A DNA stretch of 64,000 nucleotides from Maribacter zhoushanensis. GTDB taxonomy: Bacteria; Bacteroidota; Bacteroidia; Flavobacteriales; Flavobacteriaceae. The stretch covers positions 620,001 to 684,000 of the forward strand of contig NZ_JARKMR010000001.1 in the NCBI RefSeq assembly GCF_029350975.1, given 5' to 3'. Made by a program: the position numbers and the translations under genes. Below the pieces are notes generated by a model. That model was not told where the DNA came from and made no database searches. It saw nothing but the letters and a program-made list of their open reading frames with translations. This document shows positions 14,129 through 44,585 of the stretch, piece by piece (position 1 is the stretch's first letter; every line of letters starts with the position of its first letter).

Positions 14129-17100
14129 TTGGAAGTACTAACACACTTTAATCCTTTTGAAGGACCTGAACTAAAACATATTTTGCACACTACAGATGCG
14201 CAAGAAGAAATTTGGTATTCTTGTTATTTTGGTGGAGAGGATGCAAATAAGGCATACAACCTGTCATTAACTATTGAATTTCAAGGAGAACTTGATGTTG
14301 CTGCATTGCAATGGTCTGTTGACATGCTAATCAGTAGGCATGAATCTTTACGATCGGTCTTTAGTCCTGATGGGAAATTTATAAATGTATTTACATCTAT
14401 TATTGCCAATATAGATTTGCAAGATTTTTCACAAGTTCCAGAGCAGGATAAGGAAAATGAGATAGATAAGTATACAAAACAAGATACAGGCAGGGCGTTT
14501 GACTTAACAAAAGAACAATTAATACGTTTTGCAATTCTTAAAACTGATGATTATAAATATCAGTTTATAATGACTACGCATCATATCGTTTGTGACGGGT
14601 GGTCTTTAGGCATTATCATGCAAGAGTTAGGGGCTTTGTATTCTTCAAAAGTGAAGAACGTACCCCACAACCTTCCAGACGCTGTATCTTATACCAAATA
14701 TGTTGCTCATCAAAATGAAATAAAATTGAGCCCAGAATTTAATCAAACTGAAAAGTATTGGTTGAATCTCTATCAAAATGATATTCCAAATACTAATCTT
14801 CCTTTAGATTTTAAACACATAAACAAGAGAACTTACAACGGAGCAAGAATTAATCAGTTGTTAGATAAAACTTTAGTAAAAGGTATTAAACAAACGGGTA
14901 TAAAAGGTAATACTAGTTTGGTTCTTACATTAATGGCTGCTTTTGAGCTATTACTTTATAAGACGACGCAAAATGATAGTATTGTTCTTGGTTTACCGGT
15001 TGCAGGGCAGTCTTCTATGGGTGCTAAACACTTAGTTGGTCATTGTGTGAAATTACTGCCAATGAAAAGTGATCTTGACGCCAATGATAGTTTTATTGAT
15101 TATTTAAAGAAAAGAAAATCTGCCAATTTTGATGCATTCGAAAATCAAGAATTATCTTTTGGTAGTTTATTAAAGAAACTTAATATTCCTAGAATACCTG
15201 GCAGAGTACCTTTGGTACCGGTTGTTTTTAATGTGGATATGGACTTGGACGATGGTGCTACTTTTGAAGGATTGTCTTACCAGTATCATAGTAATGAACG
15301 TGAACATGAAACGTTTGAGCTATTTTTAAATGCAACAGGTTCAAATGATAATATAGTCCTTGAATGGTCTTATAACACAGATTTGTTTAAAGAAAGTACC
15401 ATACAAGAAATGGGTAACTCTTTCAATACTATATTAAGTAAATTGATTGAAGGACCAGATAAGAAATTATCTGAAATTCTAAATATTACAGATGATAGCA
15501 GTATTGTAAATGGTGCTGTGTTAGACTATCCAAAAACAACACTTCATGAGTTGTTATATGACCAGGCTACAAGTACGCCAACTGCAATTGCTTTAGAGTT
15601 TAAAAATGAGAAATTAACTTATGCCGAGCTACAACGTAGAATAAATAGTAGTGCTGTTTACTTGTGGGAAAAGGGAATAAGACCTGGTGATACCGTTGCT
15701 ATATCACTAGAAAGGTCACCAGATTTAATTGCAACGTTATTTGCAGTATTGCAGTGCGGAGCTAGATATGTGCCTATTGATACGGGCTATCCTGACAATC
15801 GTTCTTTATTGATGATTTCAGATGCTAAATCTACTTTTTTTATTTGTGATAATTCTAAACAAGAACTTGCACATGGTGCCACAACTATTTTTATCGAAGA
15901 TTTAAGAGCAAAAGCTAATGAAACCAGTAGTACCGTATTAGATGTTAACGTTTCTTCTGATGCTGGTGCTTACATTATTTATACTTCTGGTTCTACAGGA
16001 AAGCCAAAGGGAGTTCAAGTTACACATAATAATGTAGTCAACTTACTATATTCTATGGGTAAGGAACCCGGTATTGGAGCAAATGACAAAATTTTTGCTA
16101 CCACTACAATTTCTTTCGATGCCATGGTTATGGAGATTTTCTTGCCACTAGTTCATGGTGCAAGCGTAGTATTGGTAGATGAGGAAACCAGAAAAGACGG
16201 ACATCTTTTATTGCAAAAAGCAATAGAAGATGAAATAACGGTTATTTGGGGAACACCAACCATATGGCAAATTTTATTGGACTCTGGTTGGAAAAAACCT
16301 TTGCATATAAAGGCACTTATTGGTGGCGAGCCGGTGTCTAAATCTCTTTCCTTAAAATTACTGGAAAAATGTGATGAAGTTTGGAACATTTATGGACCAA
16401 CGGAAACAACTGTATGTTGCATTCTTACAAAGATTTCAGAGCAAGATGATCCTATCACAATAGGGAAACCTGTAGCAAATACCGGTATTTATATATTAGA
16501 TGCTCAAGGTAAACCTGTGAGAAAAGGTATTGTTGGTGAAATTGCAATTGGTGGTGACGGAGTAACTAATGGTTATTTAGGTCAACACAATCTTACAAAT
16601 GAGGGTTTCGTCAATAATAGCTTTCAGCCAAACGGTAATGCAAAAATGTATTTATCCGGAGATTTGGGTAAACTCTTGCCAAACGGTCAGATTGAATGTT
16701 TAGGTCGTAAAGACGGTCAAGTGAAAGTTCGAGGGCATAGAATTGAACTAGGGGAGATAGAACATTCTTTAAGTAAATTAAAAGGGATACAATCTGCAGC
16801 CACAGATGTTAGAAACAATGCTTTGAAAGCATATGTGGTTTATGAGGGTGATGAATGGGAAAAGGATGTTACGCTATGGAAAAAGCAATTAGCAGCTGAA
16901 CTACCCGTTTTTATGCTGCCTCATGAGTACGTAAGATTAGAAGAGCTTCCCGTTACCATAAATGGGAAATTAGATAGAAAAAGTCTGCCAGAAGACACAA
17001 ATAGTAATACAAATAAAGTAGAGATTGTTCAGCCGTTTACTAAAGCTGAAAAATTAGTTTTAGATGTTTGGAAAGAATGCTTGTTTTTAGATACGATTAA

Positions 17101-18091
17101 TTTACATGATGACTTCTTTGTATTAGGAGGACATTCTTTGATTGCGGCTAAAGTAATGACAAGGCTAGAGGAAAAATCTGGTCAAAGATTACCATTGTCA
17201 TCTCTATTTGAATATTCTACGGTTAAAAGTCTAGCAAGCTTATTAAAAATAGAAGAAAACACGGTTACCTGGGATTCTATGGTACCCATTCAGCCAAACG
17301 GGTCAAAAACACCATTGTTTATTGTTCATGGTGCAGGTTTAAATATACTTTCCTTTAAGACACTTAAAGATTATATGGATCCTGATCAACCAATTTATGG
17401 TTTTCAGGCGAAAGGTTTAGATGGTAAAGAGGCCCTATTGACCTCTGTTGAAGAAATCGCAGCGCATTATAACGAAGCTCTTTTGGCAACACAGCCCCAA
17501 GGACCATATGTATTGGCGGGGTATTCATCTGGAGGTATCATTGCTTATGAAATGGCAAAACAGTTGATGGCAAAAGGTGAAACAATATCAACTTTAGCTC
17601 TTTTAGACACTTATGCATACGCCCATTATGGCAAGAGTACCAGTTTAGGTAAAAAAATGGCTTATGGTAATTATTTAGCAAATAAGACCTTGCATGTTTT
17701 AAGGCAATTGTCTAGTGTAGAAGGATTTAAGTATAGAATAGGAGTAACCAAAGCTAACTTGAAGAAATTGTATTTACGATTAAAGAAAGATAAAACCGAA
17801 TCGTCAAAGACAGATTATGATTGGGAGTATGAAAGCCGTATTGTTGAGCATAATAAGGTTGTAGATAGGTATCATTTAAAGCCATTATCTATAAAGGTAG
17901 ACCTATTTAGAATTGAAGATGTTATCGATTATACACACGATAGTGTACATCTTGGCTGGAAATCTTTTGCTAAAGATGGTATTGACCTACATTATGTACC
18001 AGGAGATCACTTAAGTATGTTTAGCCCGCCTAATGATAAGGTTTTGGCAACAACGCTGCAAAATGTTGTCGATAATAATAAGGAAGCCTAA
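14129..18091 (+). CDS. Non-ribosomal peptide synthetase, C-A-PCP-TE
   Basis: A 1320-residue single-module terminating NRPS. The condensation domain (about 10-440) carries its catalytic motif HHIVCDG at 151-157. The adenylation domain (about 465-960) has YTSGSTGKPKG near 617-628, YGPTETT near 755 and KVRGHRIELGEIE near 865. The carrier domain has its phosphopantetheine serine at about 1003 (LGGHSL). The type I thioesterase (about 1050-1310) has GYSSGG with Ser1133 and GDH with His1294. Aligning by eye with GrsA gives specificity residues near D-A-M-W-I-G-I-V-C-K, which I cannot assign safely. An in-frame stop at 14120 leaves TTG at 14129 as the most likely start; the next ATG would remove the first condensation motif. 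It probably accepts the intermediate from the 19500-26879 megasynthase and releases the product. Confidence 0.93.
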   Translation: MEVLTHFNPFEGPELKHILHTTDAQEEIWYSCYFGGEDANKAYNLSLTIEFQGELDVAALQWSVDMLISRHESLRSVFSPDGKFINVFTSIIANIDLQDFSQVPEQDKENEIDKYTKQDTGRAFDLTKEQLIRFAILKTDDYKYQFIMTTHHIVCDGWSLGIIMQELGALYSSKVKNVPHNLPDAVSYTKYVAHQNEIKLSPEFNQTEKYWLNLYQNDIPNTNLPLDFKHINKRTYNGARINQLLDKTLVKGIKQTGIKGNTSLVLTLMAAFELLLYKTTQNDSIVLGLPVAGQSSMGAKHLVGHCVKLLPMKSDLDANDSFIDYLKKRKSANFDAFENQELSFGSLLKKLNIPRIPGRVPLVPVVFNVDMDLDDGATFEGLSYQYHSNEREHETFELFLNATGSNDNIVLEWSYNTDLFKESTIQEMGNSFNTILSKLIEGPDKKLSEILNITDDSSIVNGAVLDYPKTTLHELLYDQATSTPTAIALEFKNEKLTYAELQRRINSSAVYLWEKGIRPGDTVAISLERSPDLIATLFAVLQCGARYVPIDTGYPDNRSLLMISDAKSTFFICDNSKQELAHGATTIFIEDLRAKANETSSTVLDVNVSSDAGAYIIYTSGSTGKPKGVQVTHNNVVNLLYSMGKEPGIGANDKIFATTTISFDAMVMEIFLPLVHGASVVLVDEETRKDGHLLLQKAIEDEITVIWGTPTIWQILLDSGWKKPLHIKALIGGEPVSKSLSLKLLEKCDEVWNIYGPTETTVCCILTKISEQDDPITIGKPVANTGIYILDAQGKPVRKGIVGEIAIGGDGVTNGYLGQHNLTNEGFVNNSFQPNGNAKMYLSGDLGKLLPNGQIECLGRKDGQVKVRGHRIELGEIEHSLSKLKGIQSAATDVRNNALKAYVVYEGDEWEKDVTLWKKQLAAELPVFMLPHEYVRLEELPVTINGKLDRKSLPEDTNSNTNKVEIVQPFTKAEKLVLDVWKECLFLDTINLHDDFFVLGGHSLIAAKVMTRLEEKSGQRLPLSSLFEYSTVKSLASLLKIEENTVTWDSMVPIQPNGSKTPLFIVHGAGLNILSFKTLKDYMDPDQPIYGFQAKGLDGKEALLTSVEEIAAHYNEALLATQPQGPYVLAGYSSGGIIAYEMAKQLMAKGETISTLALLDTYAYAHYGKSTSLGKKMAYGNYLANKTLHVLRQLSSVEGFKYRIGVTKANLKKLYLRLKKDKTESSKTDYDWEYESRIVEHNKVVDRYHLKPLSIKVDLFRIEDVIDYTHDSVHLGWKSFAKDGIDLHYVPGDHLSMFSPPNDKVLATTLQNVVDNNKEA

Positions 18092-18093
18092 AG

Positions 18094-18999
18094 TTATTTT
18101 GCTAAGGATTTAGAAAGAACTGTAGCATTTGCTGATGTATTAGTGTAATTGTCTGCAGCCATATATCTTAAATAGTAATCTAAACCACTATCCTTTGTGG
18201 TATTATGCCATAAATGAAAACCAGCGGTTTTGAACAGGATTTCATAATTATGCGAAAATGAGCGCTCATATCCGTAGGGTTGGGATGCTTTGTTCGTCTT
18301 TAAATTATGATGTATTCCGTTTGGTTCAATAGCAACAAATGTTGTTTTACCAAGAACATTTATATGATGTAGAAATTCTTGAAGTTTAGGTTGTGTAAAA
18401 TACTCTAAAACACCTCTAGAGGTTACAAATATCATGTTTTCTGTTGCGTAGGTTTTCGTCCATTCAAAACCATCAGAGGCTATAAATTCTAATTTTTTGT
18501 TGGATGCAAATGTATTTTTGTTCTTCATTACTTGTTGTTGGCTTAAATCTATTCCAACAAATCTTTTAATGTCAGGAAATTTGGAACTTAAATAGTTCAA
18601 GACTTTTCCATTGCCACATCCTATTTCTACTATGGTATGAAAATTATGTTTTTCCATAGACAGTTTCAGCTCTAATAAATCGAACAGAAAAGTGCATTCT
18701 GGTAAAAATGATGTCTCAAAAGAATCATCGGTTTCAGAAAAATATTTGACACCTTGTTTTTTCCAGTATGCTTCATGAAATTTTGAAAGCTGATTATAAT
18801 TTTGTTCTTTTTCAGCTTTCTTCAAAAGCGATTTTCTCATAAAAAGATCAATAAAACCAATCGATTTTTTATCGATAATGGTCATGCCATTGACTGCCAT
18901 TTTTTTTGATTTCTTAGGCAGTAAGACCAAGAGAAAATTACCAATAAGAATTACAATTTTATTTTTCATTTTAAGGCATAAAAAGTAATCGACGTACAA
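18094..18999 (-). CDS. Class I SAM-dependent methyltransferase
   Basis: A 301-residue protein with a methyltransferase core. Motif I is VEIGCGNGKVL near 124-134, an acidic end of strand 2 is FVGIDLSQQQ near 147-156, and LEFIASDGFEW lies near 170-180. The N-terminus has one hydrophobic stretch (IVILIGNFLLVLLPKK), suggesting membrane contact; a start at the second Met (18969) is also possible. Its stop is only 2 bases from the NRPS stop, on the opposite strand, so it lies between the two synthetase genes but is not in their operon. It may methylate the NRPS-PKS product or a polysaccharide sugar. The substrate is unknown. Confidence 0.75.
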   Translation of the reverse strand: MYVDYFLCLKMKNKIVILIGNFLLVLLPKKSKKMAVNGMTIIDKKSIGFIDLFMRKSLLKKAEKEQNYNQLSKFHEAYWKKQGVKYFSETDDSFETSFLPECTFLFDLLELKLSMEKHNFHTIVEIGCGNGKVLNYLSSKFPDIKRFVGIDLSQQQVMKNKNTFASNKKLEFIASDGFEWTKTYATENMIFVTSRGVLEYFTQPKLQEFLHHINVLGKTTFVAIEPNGIHHNLKTNKASQPYGYERSFSHNYEILFKTAGFHLWHNTTKDSGLDYYLRYMAADNYTNTSANATVLSKSLAK

Positions 19000-19351: not shown

Positions 19352-19499
19352 ATTAAGATGTACTCAGGAAACAATGTCGAATTAAAATTTTTATTTGATT
19401 ATTAAGTTATCCATATAGCGTTTCAAGAATGTCAATTTGTCTTTTTGACAAATGTGTAAATACCAACCCCACAAGTCTGTACCTAATTATTATTTAATA

Positions 19500-22400
19500 A
19501 TGAAAGCCAATAAAGGAAATACAATAAAAGATGCTACCGCAACATACTGGAAGAATATTTTATTAGATGATATAAAATTATTAGACCTGCCAAGTAGAAA
19601 GCTTACCGTAAAAGAAAATATTGGGCAAGGTTCTTTGTTGCGTACTTATTTTTCTGCTGCTGTAACTAGTAATGTAAAAGCATACACAGCCACTAATAGC
19701 TTTGAGTCTTTATTTGTTTCTGCATTAAGTGTTCTGTTACAACGATACACCAACCAATTAGATATTTCGTTTGGCTTAACTATAGATGATAATACGTTAT
19801 CCCTATTTAGAAATACAGTTGATTCTACCGTAGATTTTAATACGTTAAATAATCAAACAAAAAGCATACTTCAATTAAACAAAGCAAATCCATATCCGAC
19901 GGATAAATTTGTTGAAGATTTTAACCTTGCAAATGAGAATGGTGAAAACGCACTTTTAGATTTTGTAGTTTCCATAAACTCTTCTAAAAATGAAGCGTCT
20001 ATTTCAAATGAAGATAACGTTACAGATGCTATTGAATTTATAAGAACGGTTAATTCTTTGTCAAATATAAAGGTGTTATTGGACCTTTCTAATAAGCATA
20101 TAAAATTAGAAGTAGTTTTTAATGAAAATGTTTTTGAAAAAGATGTAATAGAGCAGTTCATGGTGCACTTTAAGACTTTAGTGCCGCGATTAATTGAACA
20201 ACCATCTGTAGCTATAGGTAGTGTTAATGTTCTTTTAGATAAGGAACAATCTAGAATTTTAAACGATTTCAACTCACCGTATGTAGATTACCCTAGAGAA
20301 AAAACTATTGTTGATCTATTAAATGAACAAGCAGAAAAGACACCGAATAGAATTGCTGTAGTTTATGAAGATAGAAGTCTAACTTATAGCGAACTTCATA
20401 AACTATCCAACCAATTTGCAGATTATTTAATTAAGAAAAAAGGAGCTGTTAAAGGTAATTTGGCTTGCTTGATATTAGATCGTAGCGAATGGCTTATTAT
20501 CAGTATGGTCGGCATTATGAAGGCTGGTGCTATATATGTACCTGTTGATCCTAATTATCCTGATAAGCGAAAAGAATATATAAAAGAAGATAGTAATTGC
20601 GATTTTACGGTTGATGCAAACGCTATTGAAGAGTTTAATTCTACAATAGACAATTATTCTACTGAAGAAATCACAAGTGTTGATTTAAGTCCTAACGATT
20701 TAATTTATATCATTTACACCTCTGGTACAACGGGTAAACCCAAAGGGGTAATGTTAGAGCATACAAATATTGTTAGTTTGTTCATGCATGACAATCAGTT
20801 GTTTGATTTCAATGAAACTGATGTTTGGACGATGTTCCATTCTTACTGTTTTGATTTCTCGGTTTGGGAAATGTATGGAGCGCTGCTGTTCGGTGGAAAA
20901 TTAATTATTCCTTCTAGTTCGGTCATAAAGGATCCTTATGAATTTATGTCCTTAGTTATTAAAGAGAAAATTACTGTTTTAAGTCAAACACCATCTTCTT
21001 TCTTGAACATTATGGGTAGCTTGCCAGAAGGTAATGTCGATTTAAAATTAAGATATGTCATTTTTGGTGGCGAGTCTTTATTTCCTAAATATTTAAAGAA
21101 ATGGCACGAACGGTTTCCGGCGATACAATTTGTAAATGGATATGGTATTACAGAGACTACCGTTTTTGTAACCTTTAAAATGATAGATGATGAGGATATA
21201 AGAACCAATGTTTCTAATATTGGTAATTGTATATCCACATTATCTGCTTTTGTTGTAAACGGTCAAGATCAATTGCAGCCTACAGGTGTAATTGGAGAAT
21301 TATGTGTTTCTGGCTACGGTCTTGCACGTGGTTATTTAGACAGACCAGAACTTAGCAAACAAAAGTTTGCCGAAAATCCTTTTTTAGCGGACGAGAAAAT
21401 GTATCGTTCAGGAGATTTAGTTCGGTTGTTACCAGATGGTAATTTTGAATTCGTTGGTAGAATAGACCATCAAGTAAAAATTAGGGGCCACCGCGTAGAA
21501 CTTGGCGAGATTGAATCTACCTTAAATGAGATTTCAGGTGTAAACAGGGCTGTTGTATTAGCGAATACAAATAAGGATGGTGAAACTAGGTTGGTGGCTT
21601 ATTTGCAGGCCAATGGAGAGAAACCATCTGTAGGTACTTTAAAATTAGCTCTTGAGGAGAAATTGCCTGTATTTATGGTGCCTGCTTTTTTTATGTGGGT
21701 AGATGAGTTTCCTACCAATGCCAATGATAAAATTGATAAAAGTAAATTACCTGAGCCTTCTTATGAAAGATCTAGTTCAGATGTAATTTTCAGAAAACCA
21801 CGTACCAAAGTAGAAAAAAATATTGCTGCTATTTGGGAAAAGGAATTAAGCATTTCGGGTATTGGTTTGGATGATAACTTTTTTGAAATGGGTGGTACAT
21901 CACTTATGGCGCAAAAAGTTGCCAATGCCATGATGAAAACCACGGGTATTCGTATACCTGTAACCAAGTTATATCAATATACGACTATAGCATCCCTTTC
22001 TTTATTTCTTGATGGAAATAAGAAGAAGGCACCACTGGAATTTAAATACAAGAAAAAAGATACAAATTCATCTAAAGATGTAGCAATTATTGCTATGTCA
22101 GGTAGATTTCCAGGAGCTAATAATATCGATGAGTTTTGGGATGTTTTAAAGAATGGAAAAGAAACAATTTCATTTTTTACACCAGAAGAATTAGACCAGA
22201 GTATTCCTGAAGCAACACGAAAAGATTCTTTATATGTTGCCGCAAGAGGTATTGTACCGATAGCAAAAACATTTGACGCACGTTTTTTTGGACTTACTCC
22301 CAAATTTGCGGAAGCTATGGATCCCCAGCAACGTCTATTTTTGGAATTGGCTTGGGAAGTACTTGAAGAATCCGGGCACTTACCTGAGCATTACAATGGT

Positions 22401-25400
22401 CGAGTAGGTGTTTATGCCGGTACAGGTACAAATACCTATTATAAAAAGAATGTATTGCCTAATAGTGAAGTTGTTGAAACTATAGGTCAATTGCAGTTGG
22501 ATACCGCAAATGAAAAAGATTATATAGCATCAAGAACTGCATATCAGTTAGATTTAAAAGGTCCGGCGGTAAGTGTGCATTCAGCTTGTTCTACATCGTT
22601 ATTGGCAATTGCCGAGGCAGTAGAGGCTATACGTAACGGACAATGTGAAATTGCTGTTGCGGGTGGATCTAGTATTACTGCACCAATGAACAGTGGTCAC
22701 TTGTATCAAGAAGGGTCTATGCTAAGTACAGATGGTCATTGTAGACCTTTTGATGCTCAAGCAAAAGGTACCGTTTTTAGCGATGGGGCAGGGGCTATTA
22801 TATTGAAAGATTTAGATGAAGCCAAAAAAGATGGCGATATCATTTATGGCGTTGTAAAAGGTGTTGGTATTAATAATGATGGTGGTCATAAAGGTAGCTT
22901 TACGGCACCTAGTGCAGAGGGTCAAGCGAACGCTATTGCAGCGGCTATTGATGATGCCAATATTTCACCAGATACCATTAGTTATATTGAAACACACGGT
23001 ACGGCAACTCCTTTGGGTGATCCTATTGAGATAGACGGATTAAACCTTGCTTTTGGAGAACAAGAGAAACGAAACTTCTGCGGAATTGGTTCTGTGAAAA
23101 GTAATATGGGGCATTTGACCGCGGCTGCAGGTGTAACCGGATTGATAAAAACCATTTTAGCATTTAACCATAAAGTTATACCACCTTCTTTAGGTTTCGA
23201 TAAACCTAATCCTGAAATAGACTTTGAAAACAGTCCGTTTTATGTCAATAATACATTGGCTGATTGGGATGTAGAGGGAGTTAGAAGAGCAGGTGTAAGT
23301 TCGTTCGGTGTAGGTGGAACAAACGTGCATGTGGTAGTTGAGGAGTATGAAATGGAGCAAAAGACTCCGAAATTTCAACGTCCATTGCAGCTCTTGCCAA
23401 TTTCAGCAAAAACAGATACCAGTTTAGCGGGATTCGAAACTGCACTTAAAAAACATATGGATACTAAGCCAGAATTAAACTTGGCAGATGTTGCATATAC
23501 TTTAAGTACCACGAAAGCTAGTTTCAATAATCGCAGATTTATTTTAGCCGATGATACAAAAGTAGCTACTGATGTTTTATTGGATAATGATATAAAGGCA
23601 ACACAATCTTCAGTTGTGAAAATTGTGCCGAGTGAAATCGCATTTCTACTTCCAGGTCAAGGTTCCCAATATTTAAACATGGGTAAAGACCTATATGATG
23701 GGGAAAGCGCTTTTCGGGAAGCTGTAGATATATGTGCCGATTTATTGTTAGATACAATAAAGGTAGATATACGAGAAATTATTTTTCAGGATGCAAGTTC
23801 TGAGGATGCAGAAAATAAGTTGAAAGATACCCGTTATACACAACCTGCATTATTTACTATAGAATATGCACTATCACAACTATGGATGAGCTGGGGAATA
23901 CACCCAACAGTGTTATGCGGACATAGTCTTGGTGAATTCGTAGGTGCTCATTTAGCTGGGGTTTTCAGTTTAGAAGATGCCTTGAAATTGGTTTCAATTC
24001 GAGGTATTTTGGTAAGCGGACTTCCAAAAGGCAGTATGCTTACGGTAAGAATAGATCAAGAATCGCTTGAGCAGATACTTCCAGAAACACTATCAGTTGC
24101 AGCGGTAAATTCTGCAAAGCTTTGTGTAGTATCTGGTGAAGATGATGAGATTACAAAATTTAGTGAACTTCTAAAAACACAAGGTTTACCGTACCGTTTA
24201 ATAGCAACCAGTCATGCTTTTCATTCTTCTATGATGAACCCAATTTTAGAGGAATTTGGTGAACTGGTAAAGAATATCAATTTAAATATTCCGCAAATAC
24301 CAATAATATCTACCGTTACAGGTACTTGGCTTACTAATGAAGAAGCCGTAAATCCTGTTTACTGGACAAACCATTTGCGAGATACCGTACTATTTTCAGA
24401 TGCTATGGATACCATAGTGAAGTTAGAAGATGTGGTATTGTTAGAAGTGGGTCCTGGTAATACGCTTACAACTCTAAGTCGCCAGAATAAAGGCGCAAAA
24501 CATATAAAATCTTTAGCTTCTTTACCTGTCCCTAAAAAAGATGAAAATGCTTATCAAGGGGTATTAACAGCTTTAGGTCAATTATGGCTAACTGGTCTTA
24601 CCATAGATTGGAATGCCTTATACAACAACCAAGAAAGACAAAAACTTAGATTACCAACCTATGTTTTTGACCGTAAACCATGCTGGATCGACCCTTTGGT
24701 TTCTATCGCAAAAGAAAGAACCCATTTAAATGCCGATCAGCCCATAACTAGAATAATAGAAAAACCAAAAAGTGCCGCACCAATGAGAAACGTGTCTATT
24801 TTAAATAAGATTTCTGAACTAATTTCAAATTCATACGGAATTGATCTTGAAATTACCGACAAAGACAGTAGCTTTTTAGAATTAGGATTAGATTCTTTAA
24901 TTCTAACTCAAATGGCGATTACGTGTAAAAAGGAATTTAAAATTCCTATTACATTTAGACAACTAAATGAAGATATTAATACTCCAGAGCTTCTGGCAAA
25001 TTACTTAGATAAGAATTTACCCTCAGATGTAATGGCGCCACAGCCAGTTGCAGAAGCAGCTCCACAGCCAGTTGCCGCTGTTAATTATGTGCAACAAGCT
25101 GTTCCTGGTACTCCAAATACTTCGGCTACCAACCAAACGGCTATAGGCTTAATAGGTGAGCAGCTTAACTTATTGAGTCGACAACTACAGTTGTTACAAG
25201 GTAATACTGCAGCTGCAGCTCCACAGCCAGTTGCTGTTCCAAAGCCTGTGCCAGCAAAAGTGGTGAACGGAGCCTCAAGTTTAGATGCTCGTACAGAACA
25301 AGAAAAACTTGAGCATAAAAAACCATTTGGAGCTTCTCCTAGAATTGAAAAAAAATCAACAGAATTAGATCAAGTCCAAACGCAATATTTAAAAGAACTT

Positions 25401-26879
25401 ACTGAAAAGTATAATTCCAAAACTATTGGTAGTAAAAATTATGCTCAAGACAATAGAGCTAAAATGGCTGATCCAAGAGTAGTTTCTGGTTTTAAGCCAT
25501 TGACCAAAGAATTAGTTTATCCTGTTGTAATTGGTAAATCTTCAGGTAACCGCTTGTGGGATGTGGATGGTAATGAATATATAGACGCGTTGAACGGATT
25601 TGGTTCTTGCTTCTTTGGATATCAGCCAGATTTCATAAAAAAGGCAATGCACGAACAAGTTGACCTTGGGTATGAAGTAGGTCCTCAACATCCTTTAGCA
25701 GGTGAGGTGTGTGAACTTTTATGTGAATTTACGGGTCATGATAGAGCGGCATTATGTAATACTGGTTCAGAAGCAGTACTTGGTGCTATGCGTATTGCGC
25801 GTACTGTAACAGGGCGTTCTCTTATTGTTGCATTTACCGGTGCTTACCATGGTATTAATGATGAAGGTATTGTTAGAGGTTCTCAGAAAAAGAAAACTTT
25901 TCCGGCGGCAGCTGGTATTTTGCCAGAAGCAGTTCAGAATATGCTGATTCTTGATTATGGTACCGAAGAAAGTTTACAAATCATAAAAGATAGAGCACAT
26001 GAAATTGCTGGGGTCCTTATTGAACCTGTTCAAAGTCGTAGACCAGAATTTCAACCCGTAGAATTTATTAAGAATGTAAGAGAGGTAACTACTGCTGAAG
26101 AAATTCCTTTTATTTTCGATGAGGTGATTACCGGCTTTAGAATGCACCCAGGTGGAGCTCAGGCATTGTTTGATGTAAAAGCAGATTTAGCTACCTATGG
26201 TAAAGTAATGGGTGGCGGAGTATCCATTGGTGCCATAGTAGGTAAAAAAGAGTATATGGATGCGCTTGATGGCGGATTTTGGCAATATGGAGATGACTCG
26301 TATCCTGAGGTTGGTGTTACTTATTTTGCAGGTACTTTTGTACGTCATCCATTGGCATTGGCTTCTTCAAAGGCAGCTTTACTTCATATGAAAGAGCAAG
26401 GTCCAAGTTTACAGGCAAATGTATCTGCTATGACAGAACGTATGGCTAAAAGCTTGAATGCTACTTTTACAAAAGACGGACTCCCAATTGAAATTACTTA
26501 TTTTGGTTCGTTATGGAGGTTGAAATTCAAAAAAGACATTCCGTATTCAGAATTACTGTTTGTTAGCATGCGTGAAAAAGGTATTCATATTTGGGACGGT
26601 TTCCCATGTTTCTTGACCACTGCATATACTAGCGATGATGTAGATTTCTTAATGAAAACCTTGTTGGCTTCAATAGATGAATTAGTGGCTGTAGGTATAC
26701 TTTCTAAAGAGGGTTTAAATGGTAATCATGTTGCTAGTTCGCAATCGTCTTTTGAAAAACTGAATACACCACCTGTTCCAGGAGCGCGTTTAGGTAGAGA
26801 TGAAAAAGGACAGCCAGCTTGGTATGTAGCAGATGCTAGTCAAGAAAGTGGTTATTTGAAGATTGATATATCAATTTAA
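19500..26879 (+). CDS. Hybrid NRPS-PKS megasynthase with aminotransferase domain
   Basis: A 2459-residue protein with the order partial C, A, PCP, KS, AT, ACP, AMT. The first 260 residues keep only the second half of a condensation domain, with no HHxxxDG. The A domain (268-755) has YTSGTTGKPKG near 405 and GYGITETT near 545; eye-aligned specificity residues are about D-F-W-S-I-G-G-V-F. The PCP serine is at 801. KS catalytic residues are Cys1030, His1166 and His1205. The AT (1380-1674) has GHSLG with Ser1476 and HAFH at 1572-1575, which favours malonyl-CoA. The ACP serine is at 1799. After an APQPVA linker comes a class III aminotransferase (1985-2410) with PLP lysine Lys2235 and Asp2207. There is no KR, DH or ER, so the beta-keto group stays available for transamination. 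The C-terminal PPVPGARLGRDEKGQPAW tail normally leads into a C domain, here probably on the 14129 protein. Confidence 0.93.
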   Translation: MKANKGNTIKDATATYWKNILLDDIKLLDLPSRKLTVKENIGQGSLLRTYFSAAVTSNVKAYTATNSFESLFVSALSVLLQRYTNQLDISFGLTIDDNTLSLFRNTVDSTVDFNTLNNQTKSILQLNKANPYPTDKFVEDFNLANENGENALLDFVVSINSSKNEASISNEDNVTDAIEFIRTVNSLSNIKVLLDLSNKHIKLEVVFNENVFEKDVIEQFMVHFKTLVPRLIEQPSVAIGSVNVLLDKEQSRILNDFNSPYVDYPREKTIVDLLNEQAEKTPNRIAVVYEDRSLTYSELHKLSNQFADYLIKKKGAVKGNLACLILDRSEWLIISMVGIMKAGAIYVPVDPNYPDKRKEYIKEDSNCDFTVDANAIEEFNSTIDNYSTEEITSVDLSPNDLIYIIYTSGTTGKPKGVMLEHTNIVSLFMHDNQLFDFNETDVWTMFHSYCFDFSVWEMYGALLFGGKLIIPSSSVIKDPYEFMSLVIKEKITVLSQTPSSFLNIMGSLPEGNVDLKLRYVIFGGESLFPKYLKKWHERFPAIQFVNGYGITETTVFVTFKMIDDEDIRTNVSNIGNCISTLSAFVVNGQDQLQPTGVIGELCVSGYGLARGYLDRPELSKQKFAENPFLADEKMYRSGDLVRLLPDGNFEFVGRIDHQVKIRGHRVELGEIESTLNEISGVNRAVVLANTNKDGETRLVAYLQANGEKPSVGTLKLALEEKLPVFMVPAFFMWVDEFPTNANDKIDKSKLPEPSYERSSSDVIFRKPRTKVEKNIAAIWEKELSISGIGLDDNFFEMGGTSLMAQKVANAMMKTTGIRIPVTKLYQYTTIASLSLFLDGNKKKAPLEFKYKKKDTNSSKDVAIIAMSGRFPGANNIDEFWDVLKNGKETISFFTPEELDQSIPEATRKDSLYVAARGIVPIAKTFDARFFGLTPKFAEAMDPQQRLFLELAWEVLEESGHLPEHYNGRVGVYAGTGTNTYYKKNVLPNSEVVETIGQLQLDTANEKDYIASRTAYQLDLKGPAVSVHSACSTSLLAIAEAVEAIRNGQCEIAVAGGSSITAPMNSGHLYQEGSMLSTDGHCRPFDAQAKGTVFSDGAGAIILKDLDEAKKDGDIIYGVVKGVGINNDGGHKGSFTAPSAEGQANAIAAAIDDANISPDTISYIETHGTATPLGDPIEIDGLNLAFGEQEKRNFCGIGSVKSNMGHLTAAAGVTGLIKTILAFNHKVIPPSLGFDKPNPEIDFENSPFYVNNTLADWDVEGVRRAGVSSFGVGGTNVHVVVEEYEMEQKTPKFQRPLQLLPISAKTDTSLAGFETALKKHMDTKPELNLADVAYTLSTTKASFNNRRFILADDTKVATDVLLDNDIKATQSSVVKIVPSEIAFLLPGQGSQYLNMGKDLYDGESAFREAVDICADLLLDTIKVDIREIIFQDASSEDAENKLKDTRYTQPALFTIEYALSQLWMSWGIHPTVLCGHSLGEFVGAHLAGVFSLEDALKLVSIRGILVSGLPKGSMLTVRIDQESLEQILPETLSVAAVNSAKLCVVSGEDDEITKFSELLKTQGLPYRLIATSHAFHSSMMNPILEEFGELVKNINLNIPQIPIISTVTGTWLTNEEAVNPVYWTNHLRDTVLFSDAMDTIVKLEDVVLLEVGPGNTLTTLSRQNKGAKHIKSLASLPVPKKDENAYQGVLTALGQLWLTGLTIDWNALYNNQERQKLRLPTYVFDRKPCWIDPLVSIAKERTHLNADQPITRIIEKPKSAAPMRNVSILNKISELISNSYGIDLEITDKDSSFLELGLDSLILTQMAITCKKEFKIPITFRQLNEDINTPELLANYLDKNLPSDVMAPQPVAEAAPQPVAAVNYVQQAVPGTPNTSATNQTAIGLIGEQLNLLSRQLQLLQGNTAAAAPQPVAVPKPVPAKVVNGASSLDARTEQEKLEHKKPFGASPRIEKKSTELDQVQTQYLKELTEKYNSKTIGSKNYAQDNRAKMADPRVVSGFKPLTKELVYPVVIGKSSGNRLWDVDGNEYIDALNGFGSCFFGYQPDFIKKAMHEQVDLGYEVGPQHPLAGEVCELLCEFTGHDRAALCNTGSEAVLGAMRIARTVTGRSLIVAFTGAYHGINDEGIVRGSQKKKTFPAAAGILPEAVQNMLILDYGTEESLQIIKDRAHEIAGVLIEPVQSRRPEFQPVEFIKNVREVTTAEEIPFIFDEVITGFRMHPGGAQALFDVKADLATYGKVMGGGVSIGAIVGKKEYMDALDGGFWQYGDDSYPEVGVTYFAGTFVRHPLALASSKAALLHMKEQGPSLQANVSAMTERMAKSLNATFTKDGLPIEITYFGSLWRLKFKKDIPYSELLFVSMREKGIHIWDGFPCFLTTAYTSDDVDFLMKTLLASIDELVAVGILSKEGLNGNHVASSQSSFEKLNTPPVPGARLGRDEKGQPAWYVADASQESGYLKIDISI
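25038..25234 (+). repeat. Threefold CCACAGCCAGTTGC repeat in the ACP-AMT linker
   Basis: The same 14 bases occur at 25038-25051, 25062-25075 and 25221-25234, each coding for PQPVA after alanine. They flank a glutamine/leucine-rich helix (IGEQLNLLSRQLQLLQG). This is a flexible interdomain linker between the acyl carrier protein and the aminotransferase. Confidence 0.85.
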
Positions 26880-27572
26880 ATGACACATGTATTGTTTACT
26901 TATTTAACAGATGAAGGCAACGATGCTTTTTTTGCTGAGGCAAAGCATCGTTTCTCAACGGAGTTTGTAAACAAATTTTCTAAATATAAACGTTGGCAAG
27001 ATGCAAAATCTACTATACTTGGTAGGTTGCTATTAGCTTACGGATTACAGAATTTGTATCAAGTAGATATAAATAACCTCAAGATGAGTTTATCAAAGGA
27101 CAAAAAGCCCTTTTTAGAAAATTCGTCTATTCAATTCAACATTTCACACTCCAATGATGTAATTGTTTGCGCAATTACATCGGTGGGTGAAATTGGTGTT
27201 GATATTGAGAAAATCAACGATATTACTATTGAAGATTTTAAAGATCAATTCTCTCGGTCAGAATACGAAGCAATCATAGGTTCGTCAAATGTTCTAAAGC
27301 AGTTTTATAGATTTTGGACTCAAAAAGAGGCAATTGTTAAGGCAAATGGTTCTGGTTTGCATATACCCTTGAATTCATTTGAAATAAATAACCATCAGGC
27401 AGCAATTGGTGATCAATGTTATTTTTTGAAGGAAATATCTCTCAACCCCAAGTATATATGCAATGTAGCTACTCAAAATATAATATCCGATAGCGTAATT
27501 ACGTTAACAAATCTTAATACGGAATTGATTACAGATTTTGGGTCATGTAATAACTTTAAATCTTTTTGCTAA
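26880..27572 (+). CDS. 4'-phosphopantetheinyl transferase, Sfp type
   Basis: A 230-residue enzyme that moves phosphopantetheine from CoA to the serine of carrier domains, here most likely the PCP and ACP domains of the two synthetases. Family motifs are visible: FNISHSNDVIVCAI near 81-94, the magnesium-binding IGVDIEKIND near 103-112, and FWTQKEAIVKANGSGL near 142-157. Its ATG begins at the base directly after the megasynthase stop codon, so translation is probably coupled. Such pairing supports a working, dedicated pathway. A terminator hairpin follows at 27636. Confidence 0.93.
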   Translation: MTHVLFTYLTDEGNDAFFAEAKHRFSTEFVNKFSKYKRWQDAKSTILGRLLLAYGLQNLYQVDINNLKMSLSKDKKPFLENSSIQFNISHSNDVIVCAITSVGEIGVDIEKINDITIEDFKDQFSRSEYEAIIGSSNVLKQFYRFWTQKEAIVKANGSGLHIPLNSFEINNHQAAIGDQCYFLKEISLNPKYICNVATQNIISDSVITLTNLNTELITDFGSCNNFKSFC

Positions 27573-27635: not shown

Positions 27636-27660
27636 GCGGTTATAAATACCGCTTTTCTTT
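27636..27660 (+). terminator. Intrinsic terminator after the PPTase gene
   Basis: GCGGT at 27636-27640 pairs with ACCGC at 27648-27652 across a 7-base loop and is followed by TTTTCTTT. It lies 63 bases after the PPTase stop and separates the synthetase operon from the polysaccharide export genes. Confidence 0.6.
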
Positions 27661-27721
27661 ATTACGACGATTTTATAAACTAGGATATCGGAATTAATAT
27701 ATAATAGATTTCTGTTTCAAT

Positions 27722-27729
27722 TAATTTTG
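27722..27729 (+). promoter_or_regulatory. Candidate -7 element for the export operon
   Basis: TAATTTTG fits TAnnTTTG and lies 45 bases upstream of the ATG at 27775. If used, transcription would begin after the upstream in-frame ATG at 27727, supporting 27775 as the real start. No clear -33 TTG is present. Confidence 0.35.
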
Positions 27730-27774
27730 ATGTTCACTATGTACGTTAACTATAAGCTACAAATTATTTATTTT

Positions 27775-28566
27775 ATGAAAGCTAAATTTTCCCAAATTAA
27801 CCTAAAAAAGACAAGAGCTAATCTGCTTAAACTTTCTTTGCTGCTGGTAGTTGCACTACAAATTACCTCATGTGGTAGTGCTAAAAAATCCTCTTATTTT
27901 AATGAGGTAGGCAACAATTCGTTTGCCACTTATTTTGAACCATTAGAGCCAATTTTACAGAAGAACGATTTGTTGAGCATAAACATTACCAGTTTAAATG
28001 CAGAAGTGACAGAGATGTTCAACCTAGCCAATAACGCGGGTGGAGCTCAACCTACAGGTTATTTAATTGACCAAGATGGTTTTATACGTTTTCCGGTATT
28101 AGGTAAAATTGAGGTTTCTGGTATGACCAAAAAAGAACTAAGAGAATATATTAGAGGAGAGTTAGTTTCAAAAAGATTATTAATGGAGCCAATTGTGGAT
28201 ATCCGTTTTATGAATTTTAAGGTTTCGGTATTAGGAGAAGTAAATCAGCCTGCTGTATTTACCATTCCTAATGAGAAAGTAACTTTACTAGAAGCTTTAG
28301 GTATGGCTGGTGATATGACCATTTACGCTCAGAGAAATAATGTTTTGTTGATCAGTGAAGAAGATGGTGTTAAGAGTACCAAGAGAATAGATTTAACTTC
28401 AGACGAATTATTTACCTCTCCTAATTATTATCTAAAACCAAATGATATTGTATATGTACAACCAAATGACAGAAAGGTTAGGAATACGTCTAACGCTGCC
28501 CAATGGTTTTCAGTAATACTTGGTTCTTTATCATTAGCGGTAATCTCTATTTCCACTTTTAAGTAA
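27775..28566 (+). CDS. wza: Wza-like outer-membrane polysaccharide export lipoprotein
   Basis: 263 residues from the chosen start. The signal ends in a lipobox, LQITSCGSAKKS, which fits this start; the in-frame ATG at 27727 would place 16 extra residues before the signal. The poly-export domain begins near LQKNDLLSINITSLN and includes GYLIDQDGFIRFPVLGKIEVSGMTKKEL. A SLBB-like part follows (VSVLGEVNQPAVFTIPNEKVTLLEALGMAGD). A C-terminal hydrophobic helix (WFSVILGSLSLAVISISTF) is seen in Bacteroidota Wza proteins. It should form the outer-membrane export channel with the Wzc-like protein encoded next. It is the only Wza-like gene in the window. Confidence 0.92.
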   Translation: MKAKFSQINLKKTRANLLKLSLLLVVALQITSCGSAKKSSYFNEVGNNSFATYFEPLEPILQKNDLLSINITSLNAEVTEMFNLANNAGGAQPTGYLIDQDGFIRFPVLGKIEVSGMTKKELREYIRGELVSKRLLMEPIVDIRFMNFKVSVLGEVNQPAVFTIPNEKVTLLEALGMAGDMTIYAQRNNVLLISEEDGVKSTKRIDLTSDELFTSPNYYLKPNDIVYVQPNDRKVRNTSNAAQWFSVILGSLSLAVISISTFK

Positions 28567-28668: not shown

Positions 28669-30993
28669 TTGAATGTAATGACTGAAAAGGAATATTTCGA
28701 TTCACAGATGTCTTCTAAAGAGAATGGAGAGAATTTTGACTTGAAAGCACTATTTAACAAATACCTTAAATCATGGAAATTGTTCTTGGTTTTCTTGGTT
28801 TGTTTCTTAGCGTTGGCAATTCTTGCTTTGCAATTTGTGAATACCTCTTATGATATAACCAGCAAAATATTATTGAATAACGAAACCTCTAATATTGATG
28901 CTTCTGGTAATAATCTGGTGAACAATAACCCGTTCAGTAATTCTGAAAAGGTTAGTAATGAAATTGAGGTACTTACTTCTGTGCATTTAATGCGTTCAGT
29001 GTTAGATAGTTTGTCATTGCAAAGTAAAATTACAACGCCAGATGATTTTCCTGAAATTGAATTATACGGTTCTGAGTTACCATTTAAGATTGTGGTTGAT
29101 ACCTTATTTCCACTTGCTTATGAAACTACCTTAACTATTAAACTTGAAGGTGAAAATAGTTTTAGTGTTTCTGAGGAGTTTGAAGATACTGTAGATGTGC
29201 CAAGCACAGCGAGTTCTTCTCATGGTTATAACAAATACAATTATGGTTATAAAATTGAAAAACCGTACGGAATATTTCATCTTATAGAAAATGAAAAGGC
29301 AATTTCAAAAGGTAGTCAGTTTAAAGTAGAATTTAGGGATATTGATGAACTGGCACATGACTATGTGAAAAAGGCATTAAATATTTATGTTGTAAACAAA
29401 GATGCTTCGGTTATTAATATTATGTTGAAAGAATCTAATCCTGAGAAAGGTGAAGATATTATCAATGGTCTTGTTGAAATGTACGGGCAAAAAGCATTTT
29501 TAGAAAAAAATGCCATAGCGTTAGAAAACGTAAAATTTATTGATAATCGTTTAAATACTCTTTCTGCAGAGCTTAGTGAAGTAGAAATGAACGTTGCACA
29601 ATTTAAAACAGAGAACGAACTCGCTAATGTTGAATTAGATGCAAATACATTCTCTGAACAAGAAATTGATTACGATCGTAAATTGGTTGATTCTGAAATT
29701 GAGTTGAAAGTATTGAATTCAATTGAACGTAATTTAAAGAGAGGCGATAATGAGTCTACAATTAACTCTTTAAATGTTTCAAGTTCTAATCTTACCTATT
29801 TAATTGATAGTTATAATAAATTACAGATAGATAGAAAAAGCTTGCAAAGAACAGTGCCTGAGAATAATCCTAGAATGGTCGATATTAGAGACCAACTATC
29901 GCAATTAAAGCGTAATATTCTAGGTAGCCTTTCAAGCTCTAAGCGAAGCTTACGTAATACTATAGCTAGTATTAAGGACCGATCAGATGAATTTGCAGAG
30001 AAAAAACAAAGAATACCATCAATGCAACGTCAACTACTTGAAATAAGTAGAGAGCAAGGTATTAAGGAAAATCTGTTCTTATATCTACTTCAAAAACGAG
30101 AAGAGGCAGCATTAATGGTAGGGGCAAAGCAAGATAATTTTACGGTAATTGACAAAGCTATTACCGATTATGAATCTGGTTCTCCAAGTAAAAAACTATT
30201 TGTGTTAATAGCCTTGTTATTAGCACTTGCTATTCCAATAGGTATTATTCACTTAAGAGACTTGTTAAGCACTAAGGTTAAGGGTAAGAAAGATGTTGAA
30301 AAAAGAACAAGTGTGCCTGTCATAGGTGAAATTGCCCATAATAAATCGGGTAAAAACTTAATTGAAAAAGGAGAGGAAGTTAGTGCCCTGGCTCAAGGTT
30401 TTAGAATGATGAGAATGAACTTAGACTTTATTCTATCTAAAAAGAAGGTACAGACCGTTTTGGTAACCTCTGCCATTAAGGGTGAAGGTAAAACATTCTT
30501 CTCATCTAATATGGGGGTAGCTTTGGCATCATCAAGTTCTAAGGTGGTGGTTCTGGAATTAGATAAACACAATCCAGAATTAATTGAAACATTGGGAGAA
30601 GCAAAGAAAGAGTTTGGTGTAACCAATTACCTAAATCAGCCTTTTAATACCATTACCGTAAATGATATTTTGGTTCCGGTGAAAGACAATGCAAACTTAT
30701 TTGCTATTGGTCTAGGGTCAGAACAGATTGACGGACTAGAATCATTTGGGTCAAAGAAAATGGAAGAGTTAATGGCTCAGCTAAGGCAAGAGTTCGATTA
30801 TATTTTAATTGACTCTGCACCAATAGGTAAATTGGCAGATACCCTTGCACTTTCAAAATATACAGATTGTTGTCTTTATATGGTACGTGCCAAACATTCT
30901 AAATTAGAAGACTTAAGTATTATAGAAGATGTAAGAATTAATAAAAAGTTCAAAAACCCAATGGTGGTTTTGAATGATGTTTCTACCAAATAA
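28669..30993 (+). CDS. wzc: Wzc-like chain-length determinant with tyrosine-kinase ATPase domain
   Basis: A 774-residue inner-membrane co-polymerase that works with Wza and Wzy to control chain length and export. A first membrane segment lies near 35-57, followed by a long periplasmic Wzz-type coiled-coil domain (about 60-500) and a second membrane segment near 508-526. The cytoplasmic kinase-like domain has Walker A GEGKT at 605-609 and Walker B ILIDSAPIG near 721. The Walker A' region reads VVVLELDKHNP, where BY-kinases normally have DxDxR, and the C-terminus (VVLNDVSTK) lacks the usual tyrosine cluster. Kinase cycling may therefore be altered or absent. A start at the second Met is possible. 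Confidence 0.9.
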   Translation: MNVMTEKEYFDSQMSSKENGENFDLKALFNKYLKSWKLFLVFLVCFLALAILALQFVNTSYDITSKILLNNETSNIDASGNNLVNNNPFSNSEKVSNEIEVLTSVHLMRSVLDSLSLQSKITTPDDFPEIELYGSELPFKIVVDTLFPLAYETTLTIKLEGENSFSVSEEFEDTVDVPSTASSSHGYNKYNYGYKIEKPYGIFHLIENEKAISKGSQFKVEFRDIDELAHDYVKKALNIYVVNKDASVINIMLKESNPEKGEDIINGLVEMYGQKAFLEKNAIALENVKFIDNRLNTLSAELSEVEMNVAQFKTENELANVELDANTFSEQEIDYDRKLVDSEIELKVLNSIERNLKRGDNESTINSLNVSSSNLTYLIDSYNKLQIDRKSLQRTVPENNPRMVDIRDQLSQLKRNILGSLSSSKRSLRNTIASIKDRSDEFAEKKQRIPSMQRQLLEISREQGIKENLFLYLLQKREEAALMVGAKQDNFTVIDKAITDYESGSPSKKLFVLIALLLALAIPIGIIHLRDLLSTKVKGKKDVEKRTSVPVIGEIAHNKSGKNLIEKGEEVSALAQGFRMMRMNLDFILSKKKVQTVLVTSAIKGEGKTFFSSNMGVALASSSSKVVVLELDKHNPELIETLGEAKKEFGVTNYLNQPFNTITVNDILVPVKDNANLFAIGLGSEQIDGLESFGSKKMEELMAQLRQEFDYILIDSAPIGKLADTLALSKYTDCCLYMVRAKHSKLEDLSIIEDVRINKKFKNPMVVLNDVSTK

Positions 30994-43520: not shown

Positions 43521-44585
43521 TCATTTTTTATAAAATTCGCTCCAACCTAAATCAGAAAAACCTGGGCCTTGTGTGGCTTCTGAAAATGCTATTCCCGTTC
43601 CATAACCGTTCCATTCCATTAATACGATTCTATTTGTATTATCCACAATAATGTCCCACCCAATTAATTTTATCATGGGCATTTTGTTTTGCAAGTCTAA
43701 GACCATATTTACACAATCGTGAAAAAATGGTATGGTTTTATTTTCAAAAGTAACTTTTGTATCCGGATGTATGTGGGTAGATTTATATGTTTGATCATAT
43801 CCAATCTCAGCTAATCTACCAGTTGTTGCATCAATTGGAACAATAATTTGATTGCTAGATTGAACGTGAGTTTGATTGTTTCTACCTAGCCTAATAAAAC
43901 TAGCTCTTAATGATGCTTTATCGTCATTGTCTATTACCGTTGTAAATCTTAAAGTTGCAACAGCATCTTTAGTAAATTGATTAAAAAAATCATGTTGGTC
44001 TATAAATGGTTGAATAACGCCATTACCATTTTTACTGACTTTATTTGCATTAAAACTATCTTTATTATATACCCGAATACCTTTACCTTGATAACTATGA
44101 TCTAGTTTGTTAATAACCTTTATATTGTTGTAAGTGTGATCGTTGGCTATTAATGCGTTGATTTGTTCGGATGTTTTAATTTTAAAATCTTTTGAGAACC
44201 ATTCCCCATTAATATAGTAAGCCAAATCTTGACAGATATTTTCATTGAATACTTTATTTGTAAATGGTTTTAAGAAAGAGATTTTACCATAATCGCCTTG
44301 AATTTTTGGTAATACTATTCTACCATAATAATTATCAGGTAACCAACCTTCCATAAATTTCCCATACATAAGTGTGTATACATAAAGCCATGGCGCAAAA
44401 CCTTTCCAGCCTAAGACATCACGTGCATAGTCATTGGCTACCTTTTTTGATTTGGAATTTAACTTTCCTTTCTCTAATTCAATTTGTTGAAGTACCCTTT
44501 TAGCTACTTTATTAGAATCATAATGATATTTTATATTCAAAGCACGCTCAAAAGATTGCTTGGTAAGTTTTGTAAATTGCATCAT
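43521..44585 (-). CDS. Sugar-transfer-associated ATP-grasp protein
   Basis: A 354-residue protein of the ATP-grasp type found in polysaccharide clusters. Likely ATP-grasp elements are KVINKLDHSYQGKGIRVY near 156-173, GVIQPFIDQHDFFNQF near 188-203, and MIKLIGWDIIVDNTNRIVLMEWN near 307-329 with the metal-binding D and E/N residues. ATP-grasp enzymes join a carboxylate to an amine or thiol through an acyl-phosphate. The substrate in this subfamily is not established. It starts 4 bases after the CapK-like gene, so both may act together, perhaps adding an amino-acid-like group to a sugar. Confidence 0.82.
   Translation of the reverse strand: MMQFTKLTKQSFERALNIKYHYDSNKVAKRVLQQIELEKGKLNSKSKKVANDYARDVLGWKGFAPWLYVYTLMYGKFMEGWLPDNYYGRIVLPKIQGDYGKISFLKPFTNKVFNENICQDLAYYINGEWFSKDFKIKTSEQINALIANDHTYNNIKVINKLDHSYQGKGIRVYNKDSFNANKVSKNGNGVIQPFIDQHDFFNQFTKDAVATLRFTTVIDNDDKASLRASFIRLGRNNQTHVQSSNQIIVPIDATTGRLAEIGYDQTYKSTHIHPDTKVTFENKTIPFFHDCVNMVLDLQNKMPMIKLIGWDIIVDNTNRIVLMEWNGYGTGIAFSEATQGPGFSDLGWSEFYKK

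Follow-up and report, generated by a model that had tools for sequence, protein, structure and literature searches.

The mycosubtilin synthase MycA begins from a fatty acid, and structures of its aminotransferase (AMT) domain are available (6kfm, 6kfr and 6kfu). In this enzyme an ACP-AMT pair aminates a beta-ketoacyl thioester at the PKS-NRPS junction (PMC3870968). A related layout appears in Table 2 of the same paper, where C6XWU5 from Pedobacter heparinus is given as A-CP-KS-AT-CP-PLP1 with the predicted cluster Nrp-Mal-Gly-Pk, and similar layouts are recorded for Thiorhodococcus and Salinisphaera (PMC3870968). C6XWU5 shares domain order, phylum and a GSA-type Aminotran_3 domain with the enzyme described here; the likeness is one of published layout, and the Table 2 section states neither a product nor an EPS link (PMC3870968). 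The AMT-bearing PKS-NRPS lines described in the relevant sections of PMC13252402 and PMC12819058 are others than this one.

The window, the whole stretch of DNA that was analysed, is 64,000 nucleotides long and comes from Maribacter zhoushanensis. It holds a megasynthase, a second synthase and a PPTase inside an EPS locus, with the following features.

14129..18091, + strand: C-A-PCP-TE NRPS, 1320 aa, putative TTG start (Pfam, motifs)
15560..16798, + strand: second A domain (A2), code DAMWLGIVCK (Pfam, 10-residue code)
17312..18025, + strand: type I thioesterase (PF00975; GYSSGG, GDHLSMF)
18094..18999, - strand: SAM methyltransferase, between the two synthases (PF13649)
19452..26879, + strand: megasynthase ORF, 2475 aa, C remnant-A-PCP-KS-AT-ACP-AMT (ATG start, Pfam, motifs)
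19530..20258, + strand: C-terminal half of a condensation domain, without HHxxxDG (PF00668 profile positions 192-455 of 456)
20304..21776, + strand: starter A domain (A1), code DFWSIGGVFK, Thr-like (Pfam, 10-residue code)
21822..22007, + strand: PCP (PF00550, GGTSL)
22074..23198, + strand: KS with Cys, His and Lys-His motifs (PF00109, PF02801, motifs)
23643..24599, + strand: AT with GHSLG and HAFH, putative malonyl type (PF00698, motifs)
24786..24986, + strand: ACP (second PP-binding stretch, LGLDSL)
25518..26591, + strand: class III aminotransferase domain, the AMT (PF00202; best PDB match 6kfm MycA, E 1.1e-107)
26712..26876, + strand: conserved C-terminal linker with PPVPGARLGRD (alignment with close relatives)
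26880..27572, + strand: 4'-phosphopantetheinyl transferase, the PPTase (PF01648, PF22624)
27727..28566, + strand: Wza-like polysaccharide export protein, directly downstream (PF02563, SLBB)
28669..30993, + strand: Wzz/Wzc-like co-polymerase (PF02706, PF13807)
43521..44585, - strand: sugar-transfer associated ATP-grasp in the EPS locus (PF14397)

Pfam places in the megasynthase a partial Condensation domain (aa 27-269), AMP-binding (291-629), PP-binding (791-852), KS (875-1249), AT (1398-1716), a second PP-binding stretch and Aminotran_3 (2023-2380), and lists no KR, DH, ER or MT family over the whole 2475 aa. The KS carries ACSTSL (aa 1045), HGTATPLGD (1182) and KSNMGH (1216), and the AT carries GHSLG (1490) and HAFH (1588), the latter of which we take to be a malonyl signature. 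The carrier serines lie in GGTSL (814, PCP) and LGLDSL (1811, ACP), and the PLP lysine of the AMT, in YGKVMGGG (2249), is invariant in 17 aligned rows. The first-pass annotation had proposed the order A-PCP-KS-AT-ACP-AMT with intact catalytic residues and with no KR, DH or ER; domain and motif searches agree on each point and found all the motifs present. The N-terminal half condensation domain, which was absent from that earlier domain order, is probably a non-catalytic remnant. The C-terminal linker perhaps bridges to a downstream C domain. The NRPS at 14129-18091 carries HHIVCDG (aa 151), GGHSL (1000) and GYSSGG (1131). Of six KS-family matches in the 4.26 Mb genome, that of the megasynthase scores best, and the 14129-18091 protein is the only match at E ≤ 1e-30 in a genome-wide C-domain search.

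Among solved structures, the AMT matches that of MycA (6kfm) with 363.7 bits (E 1.1e-107, over 416 residues), against 160.4 bits (E 4.9e-46) for the best GSA aminomutase, and it has a 97% match in Maribacter sp. 1_MG-2023. In a 31-row AMT tree it clusters with Winogradskyella, Mariniflexile and Euzebyella (100/99), a clade that lies inside a Bacteroidota group (99/99) and then in a wider group with Pseudomonadota, Myxococcota, Planctomycetota and Cyanobacteriota (94/91); its neighbours are other A-PCP-KS-AT-ACP-AMT enzymes, and its group excludes MycA and several Bacteroidota AMTs. The HemL-like protein of the same genome is a separate gene, 33% identical to the AMT, and pairs with GSA 6w80 (96/96). 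A GSA-type or stray aminotransferase was rejected on the bit scores, the separate HemL-like gene and the tree grouping. The GSA-containing branch that parts GSA from the AMTs was not starred (85/78), so the AMT-GSA split is drawn from the bit scores. Based on its class III fold, catalytic Lys and place after the ACP, the domain is classed as a PKS-embedded AMT of the MycA type, as had been claimed before any database search, and in the tree that includes MycA it stands apart from GSA.

A search for AMT matches at E ≤ 1e-60 was positive for 17 of the 397 genomes of the family and 18 of the 395 of the phylum (the window's being counted in both), and a few of these are lipopeptide-like (43-45% identity or lower). 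Cassettes of Winogradskyella, Mariniflexile, Euzebyella, Pedobacter, Mucilaginibacter, Hymenobacter and Spirosoma (L080-L101) have the order A-T-KS-AT-T-AMT, with C-A-T-TE downstream in most and a PPTase in many. They differ from the window in that the NRPS is downstream, the C remnant was unseen, the starter codes are Pro-like, Asp-like or others, and the second A domain is often Gly-like. Judged by its domains, the window pair belongs to this A-PCP-KS-AT-ACP-AMT plus C-A-PCP-TE cassette, amino-acid A domain included. The earlier statement that such a set is undescribed was therefore too strong, as the layout is in print (Table 2 of PMC3870968) and the cassette occurs across Bacteroidota and beyond. 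The evidence for the enzyme and its likely chemistry is good, and the layout is already known; no characterised product of the cassette was found in the open PubMed Central literature, the cassette is not named in the relevant sections of a survey of Flavobacteriaceae clusters (PMC10734526), and the recurring EPS linkage described below was found nowhere in print in the open PubMed Central literature.

The substrates of the line can be approached through the A domain codes. Asp235 and Lys517 are kept in all 58 starter A domains that stand in a readable A-T-KS order in one ORF among 80 named loci, which makes an amino-acid starter, and with it a beta,gamma-diamino acyl unit, the best reading; the amino-acid starter assumed in the first-pass annotation thus holds. 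Nineteen of the 58 codes are Pro-like (those that start with DVQ, DVQYTGVIWK excepted) and 15 are Val-like (DA[LF]W.GGTFK). Among the codes given in PMC12283262, V236/Q239 marks Pro, DALWIGGTFK Val and DILQLGMIWK Gly, and those for Thr/Dhb include DFWNIGMVHK and DFWSVGMVHK. The first six residues of A1 fit DFW[N/S][I/V]G, with three of ten positions off either of these Thr codes. The A2 code DAMWLGIVCK is not among the codes in the relevant passages of PMC12283262, and by its likeness to the Val codes its substrate is perhaps aliphatic; second A domains in other cassettes are often Gly-like. A fatty or hydroxy acid starter, as in mycosubtilin, would instead give an ordinary beta-amino acid, and the kinship of the AMT with MycA would suit it, as would three AMTs outside the window's group (L279-L281) that follow A-like domains 20-24% identical to the window's. 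This is highly improbable given Asp235 in 58 of 58 starters, the many codes that fit the Pro, Val and Thr codes of PMC12283262, and the separate place of the window's group in the AMT tree; the fatty-acyl starter was rejected on the first of these. Compared with the mycosubtilin/iturin synthetases the window has an amino-acid A domain with Asp235 and no acyl-AMP ligase starter, and in contrast to MycA an amino-acid A-PCP primes its PKS module and a separate protein carries the C domain.

We give about three chances in four to a two-protein hybrid line. Its domain content, motifs, selection, kinship and natural fusion order are observed, and its chemistry, both substrates and release mode are predicted from sequence. 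A1 would load an alpha-amino acid (Thr-like code) onto the first PCP, the KS would extend it by one malonyl unit selected by the AT, and the AMT would transaminate the ACP-bound gamma-amino-beta-ketoacyl thioester to a beta,gamma-diamino acyl unit, which from a Thr starter would be 3,4-diamino-5-hydroxyhexanoyl. The C domain of the 14129-18091 protein would then couple this unit to a second amino acid, probably aliphatic, and the TE would free a dipeptide (C11H23N3O4 if made from Thr and Val, linear and unmethylated). The PPTase would prime the carriers and the methyltransferase may methylate. With lower confidence, the place of use would be the polysaccharide of the surrounding locus. A gamma-amino-beta-keto thioester could cyclise to a tetramate ahead of transamination.

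Support for the handover between the two proteins, also anticipated in the first-pass annotation, comes from relatives in which the whole line is one ORF. The fusion A-T-KS-AT-T-AMT-C-A-T-TE is found in Spirosoma utsteinense (L099, 3955 aa), in Aliiroseovarius (L297) and in a Verrucomicrobiia MAG (L156, 3642 aa), and these natural fusions argue that the C-A-PCP-TE protein acts after the AMT in the Maribacter pair. In Maribacter the NRPS gene is upstream of the megasynthase with the opposite-strand methyltransferase in the gap; the fusions and synteny are the grounds for assuming that the two proteins pair in trans. The methyltransferase has as its best NCBIfam match TIGR04371, a putative sugar O-methyltransferase (37.1 bits, under the cut-off of 44), and a relative of it adjoins the cassette in eight of 36 loci compared; these eight are five Maribacter loci (three not at the window-type locus), two Winogradskyella and one Euzebyella. 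The best NCBIfam matches of the PPTase are AusB and HetI, both under cut-off.

Within the genus, 19 of 36 genomes have a megasynthase match at E ≤ 1e-100 and ten of them, the window's included in both counts, have the full-length form with the C remnant, which was unseen in the other relatives scanned. Nine full-length regions were fetched; all nine have gmd on one side, and eight have wza on the opposite side, where the region from G010 stops short. Five further genomes (G014, G015, G021, G034 and G035) encode, at another place, a form that is 54-56% identical, lacks the remnant and is followed by the NRPS. In one genome (G013, 81% complete) the cassette (L076) is split into many short ORFs, possibly by sequencing error. 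Against six Maribacter orthologues the dN/dS is 0.08-0.11 for the whole megasynthase and 0.024-0.036 for the AMT, and the whole-protein value, together with the 19 matching genomes, rules out chance. The C remnant, at 46-75% identity in the six orthologues, has the highest dN/dS of the measured regions in every pair (0.23-0.33) and, given the AMT values, is loosely kept. In the pairs with G004, G027 and G032 the dS of A-PCP is 1.25-1.88 compared with 0.68-0.79 for the AMT; this excess of silent-site divergence indicates A domain replacement, and the KS dS is also raised in two of the three (1.37 and 1.51). The A1 code shifts alongside the A-PCP divergence, from DFWSIGGVFK to DFWNIGGIFK, the latter being that of most orthologues. 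In a Mariniflexile cassette (L081) the starter A code is DAMWLGIVCK, the code of the window's A2, a sign of A-domain shuffling.

The EPS locus around the synthases contains glycosyltransferases, two flippases, the Wza-like and Wzc-like proteins, a WecG-family glycosyltransferase, two Acyl_transf_3 proteins and the sugar-transfer ATP-grasp. Profiles for six polysaccharide families, seeded from this locus, were scored in flanks of up to 15 kb per side (16.5 kb for one) of 25 cassettes from 24 Bacteroidota genomes. These are 24 of 28 cassette genomes: the window's genome was excluded because the seeds came from it, and G101, G304 and G573 because of short contigs, while G174 and G207 contributed one flank and G218, G321 and G332 a short flank. 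The controls were 34 random stretches from 18 of the cassette genomes and 17 other Bacteroidota NRPS loci, two of which (G664 and G775) hold MycA-like AMTs. At least two polysaccharide genes were found beside 12 of 25 cassettes and beside two of 17 other NRPS loci (Fisher p 0.015; 11 of 24 and p 0.022 with G523 left out). At least one gene was found by 12 of 25 and five of 17, respectively, a difference that is not significant (p 0.19); of single stretches, 14 of 48 cassette flanks and three of 34 random ones had at least one. Wza alone was within 50 kb in seven of the 28 cassette genomes. A seed set for GMD/FCL, which speaks against the linkage, had 11 hits in cassette flanks, five in random stretches and 19 by other NRPS loci; it was dropped from the counts because it gathers the SDR family at large.

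A similar trend is seen on plasmids, where 16 of 50 records with an AMT match were examined. Twelve were kept as amino-acid type, with Asp235 and Lys517 present, and four (L301, L302, L305 and L306) were set aside; starter A identity to the window is 27-46% in the former and 22-28% in the latter, so the border of the type is not sharp. At least two polysaccharide genes flank nine of the 12 and none of ten control NRPS loci (p 0.0004); the counts are nine of 16 and none of ten with the four included (p 0.0037), and nine of 12 and none of seven without three controls with little flank (L309, L315 and L316; p 0.0024). The ten controls, in none of which was an AMT match found, were hand-picked among 60 listed of 312 records, and in both the Bacteroidota and plasmid sets the loci counted are not phylogenetically independent. 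On these counts the EPS setting noted from the window alone recurs, both Bacteroidota and plasmid cassettes standing above other NRPS loci at two or more genes.

Seven of the nine EPS-linked plasmid loci are evident from annotation (Rhizobium SL42 and CCGE532, Aliiroseovarius, Loktanella, Rhodobacter, Jannaschia and Variovorax paradoxus VAI-C). VAI-C encodes on one strand a PKS, an NRPS, a PPTase, hydrolases, wza, wzc and a sugar transferase, an order that resembles megasynthase, PPTase, wza and wzc in Maribacter. Plasmid cassettes of Rhizobium, Loktanella, Rhodobacter, Jannaschia and V. paradoxus share the A, KS-AT-T-AMT and C-A-T modules and the PPTase of the window and are accompanied by several of Wza, Wzc, sugar transferase, flippase and glycosyltransferases. 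They differ in an AMT 40-56% identical to the window's, in a TIGR04325 methyltransferase that usually takes the place of the window's, and in an extra C-T module, with a TE in Rhizobium and Loktanella (Pfam) and without one in V. paradoxus. Among chromosomal loci with short flanks, an Acidobacteria MAG (L143) has GT2, Wza and Wzc, and two Verrucomicrobiota loci have single genes. Counted without a control set, 28 of 66 loci of at least 18 kb (four of them plasmid-borne) have at least one polysaccharide gene.

Assembly-line enzymes are usually seen as makers of free small molecules, and a little short of an even chance is given here to the reading in which the dipeptide freed by the TE diffuses away, as an antibiotic, signal or metallophore, and the EPS locus is a shared hot spot for mobile genes and nothing more. 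Release by the TE would yield a free acid or a lactam, 13 of the 25 Bacteroidota cassettes have none of the six scored families in the fetched flanks, and a solo megasynthase on a Spirosoma plasmid has no EPS genes in its annotation; the non-significant excess at one gene and the GMD/FCL hits point the same way. Against it, the linkage is seen in none of ten other NRPS loci on proteobacterial plasmids and, at two or more genes, in two of 17 from Bacteroidota, and no exporter or resistance family, polysaccharide flippases aside, is among the 33 window proteins scanned with Pfam, eight of which have no family.

Alternatively, with about one chance in three, the cassette may be part of the EPS pathway, its beta,gamma-diamino acyl peptide, built from an amino acid, acetate and an amine, decorating the EPS with cationic vicinal diamines. 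The cassette would have moved into or out of polysaccharide loci many times, in Bacteroidota and in Alpha- and Betaproteobacteria, perhaps also in Acidobacteriota and Verrucomicrobiota, with A domain swaps varying the decoration by strain. Attachment to the polysaccharide is suggested by gene neighbourhood and may occur. If it does, the cassette would be a programmable route to unusual, positively charged amino acids on surface slime, and its company of export and glycosyltransferase genes in distant groups would be explained. Even with a free product, the cassette predicts that Maribacter, Pedobacter, Rhizobium and Variovorax make a family of vicinal-diamine dipeptides, of which no characterised member was found in the open PubMed Central literature.

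A vicinal diamine also binds Cu(II), and the three annotated plasmid loci of the amino-acid type outside EPS settings, in S. linguale and Variovorax WDL1 and RA8 (L291, L292 and L295), lie near copper-handling genes. The two Variovorax cases are close relatives, however, and in a search of 2001 proteins from flanks and controls the copper ATPase, multicopper oxidase and DUF305 queries gave no match at E ≤ 1e-15, the best being one DUF305 at 2.9e-8 (L299). A copper chelator is accordingly very unlikely, and a copper link as a general rule was rejected on that search. Copper genes are common on plasmids.

The EPS label was also placed on a 37-row AMT tree (21 EPS-linked and 16 not, without G523), where it needs 10 changes, five of them forced by starred branches. 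Shuffled labels need 12.3 on average, and 61 of the 500 shuffled sets need no more than 10 by a quick method, so the label is barely clustered on the tree. With about 10 changes, a single inherited EPS locus was rejected.

Two smaller observations concern the surroundings of the cassettes. Between the PPTase and wza of the window, the non-coding stretch 27640-27740 is strongly conserved in six Maribacter sequences; it has a hairpin-like site in the window (the region has three such sites, 2.1 being expected) and a TTG..TAnnTTTG-like motif that we read as a possible promoter. In five Rhizobiaceae and Rhodobacterales plasmid loci (L293, L296, L297, L298 and L304) a TIGR04325 methyltransferase and a flippase recur, both in four of the five, and in three of them (L293, L296 and L297) a DegT-family aminotransferase, potentially the source of an amino sugar, lies by the cassette.
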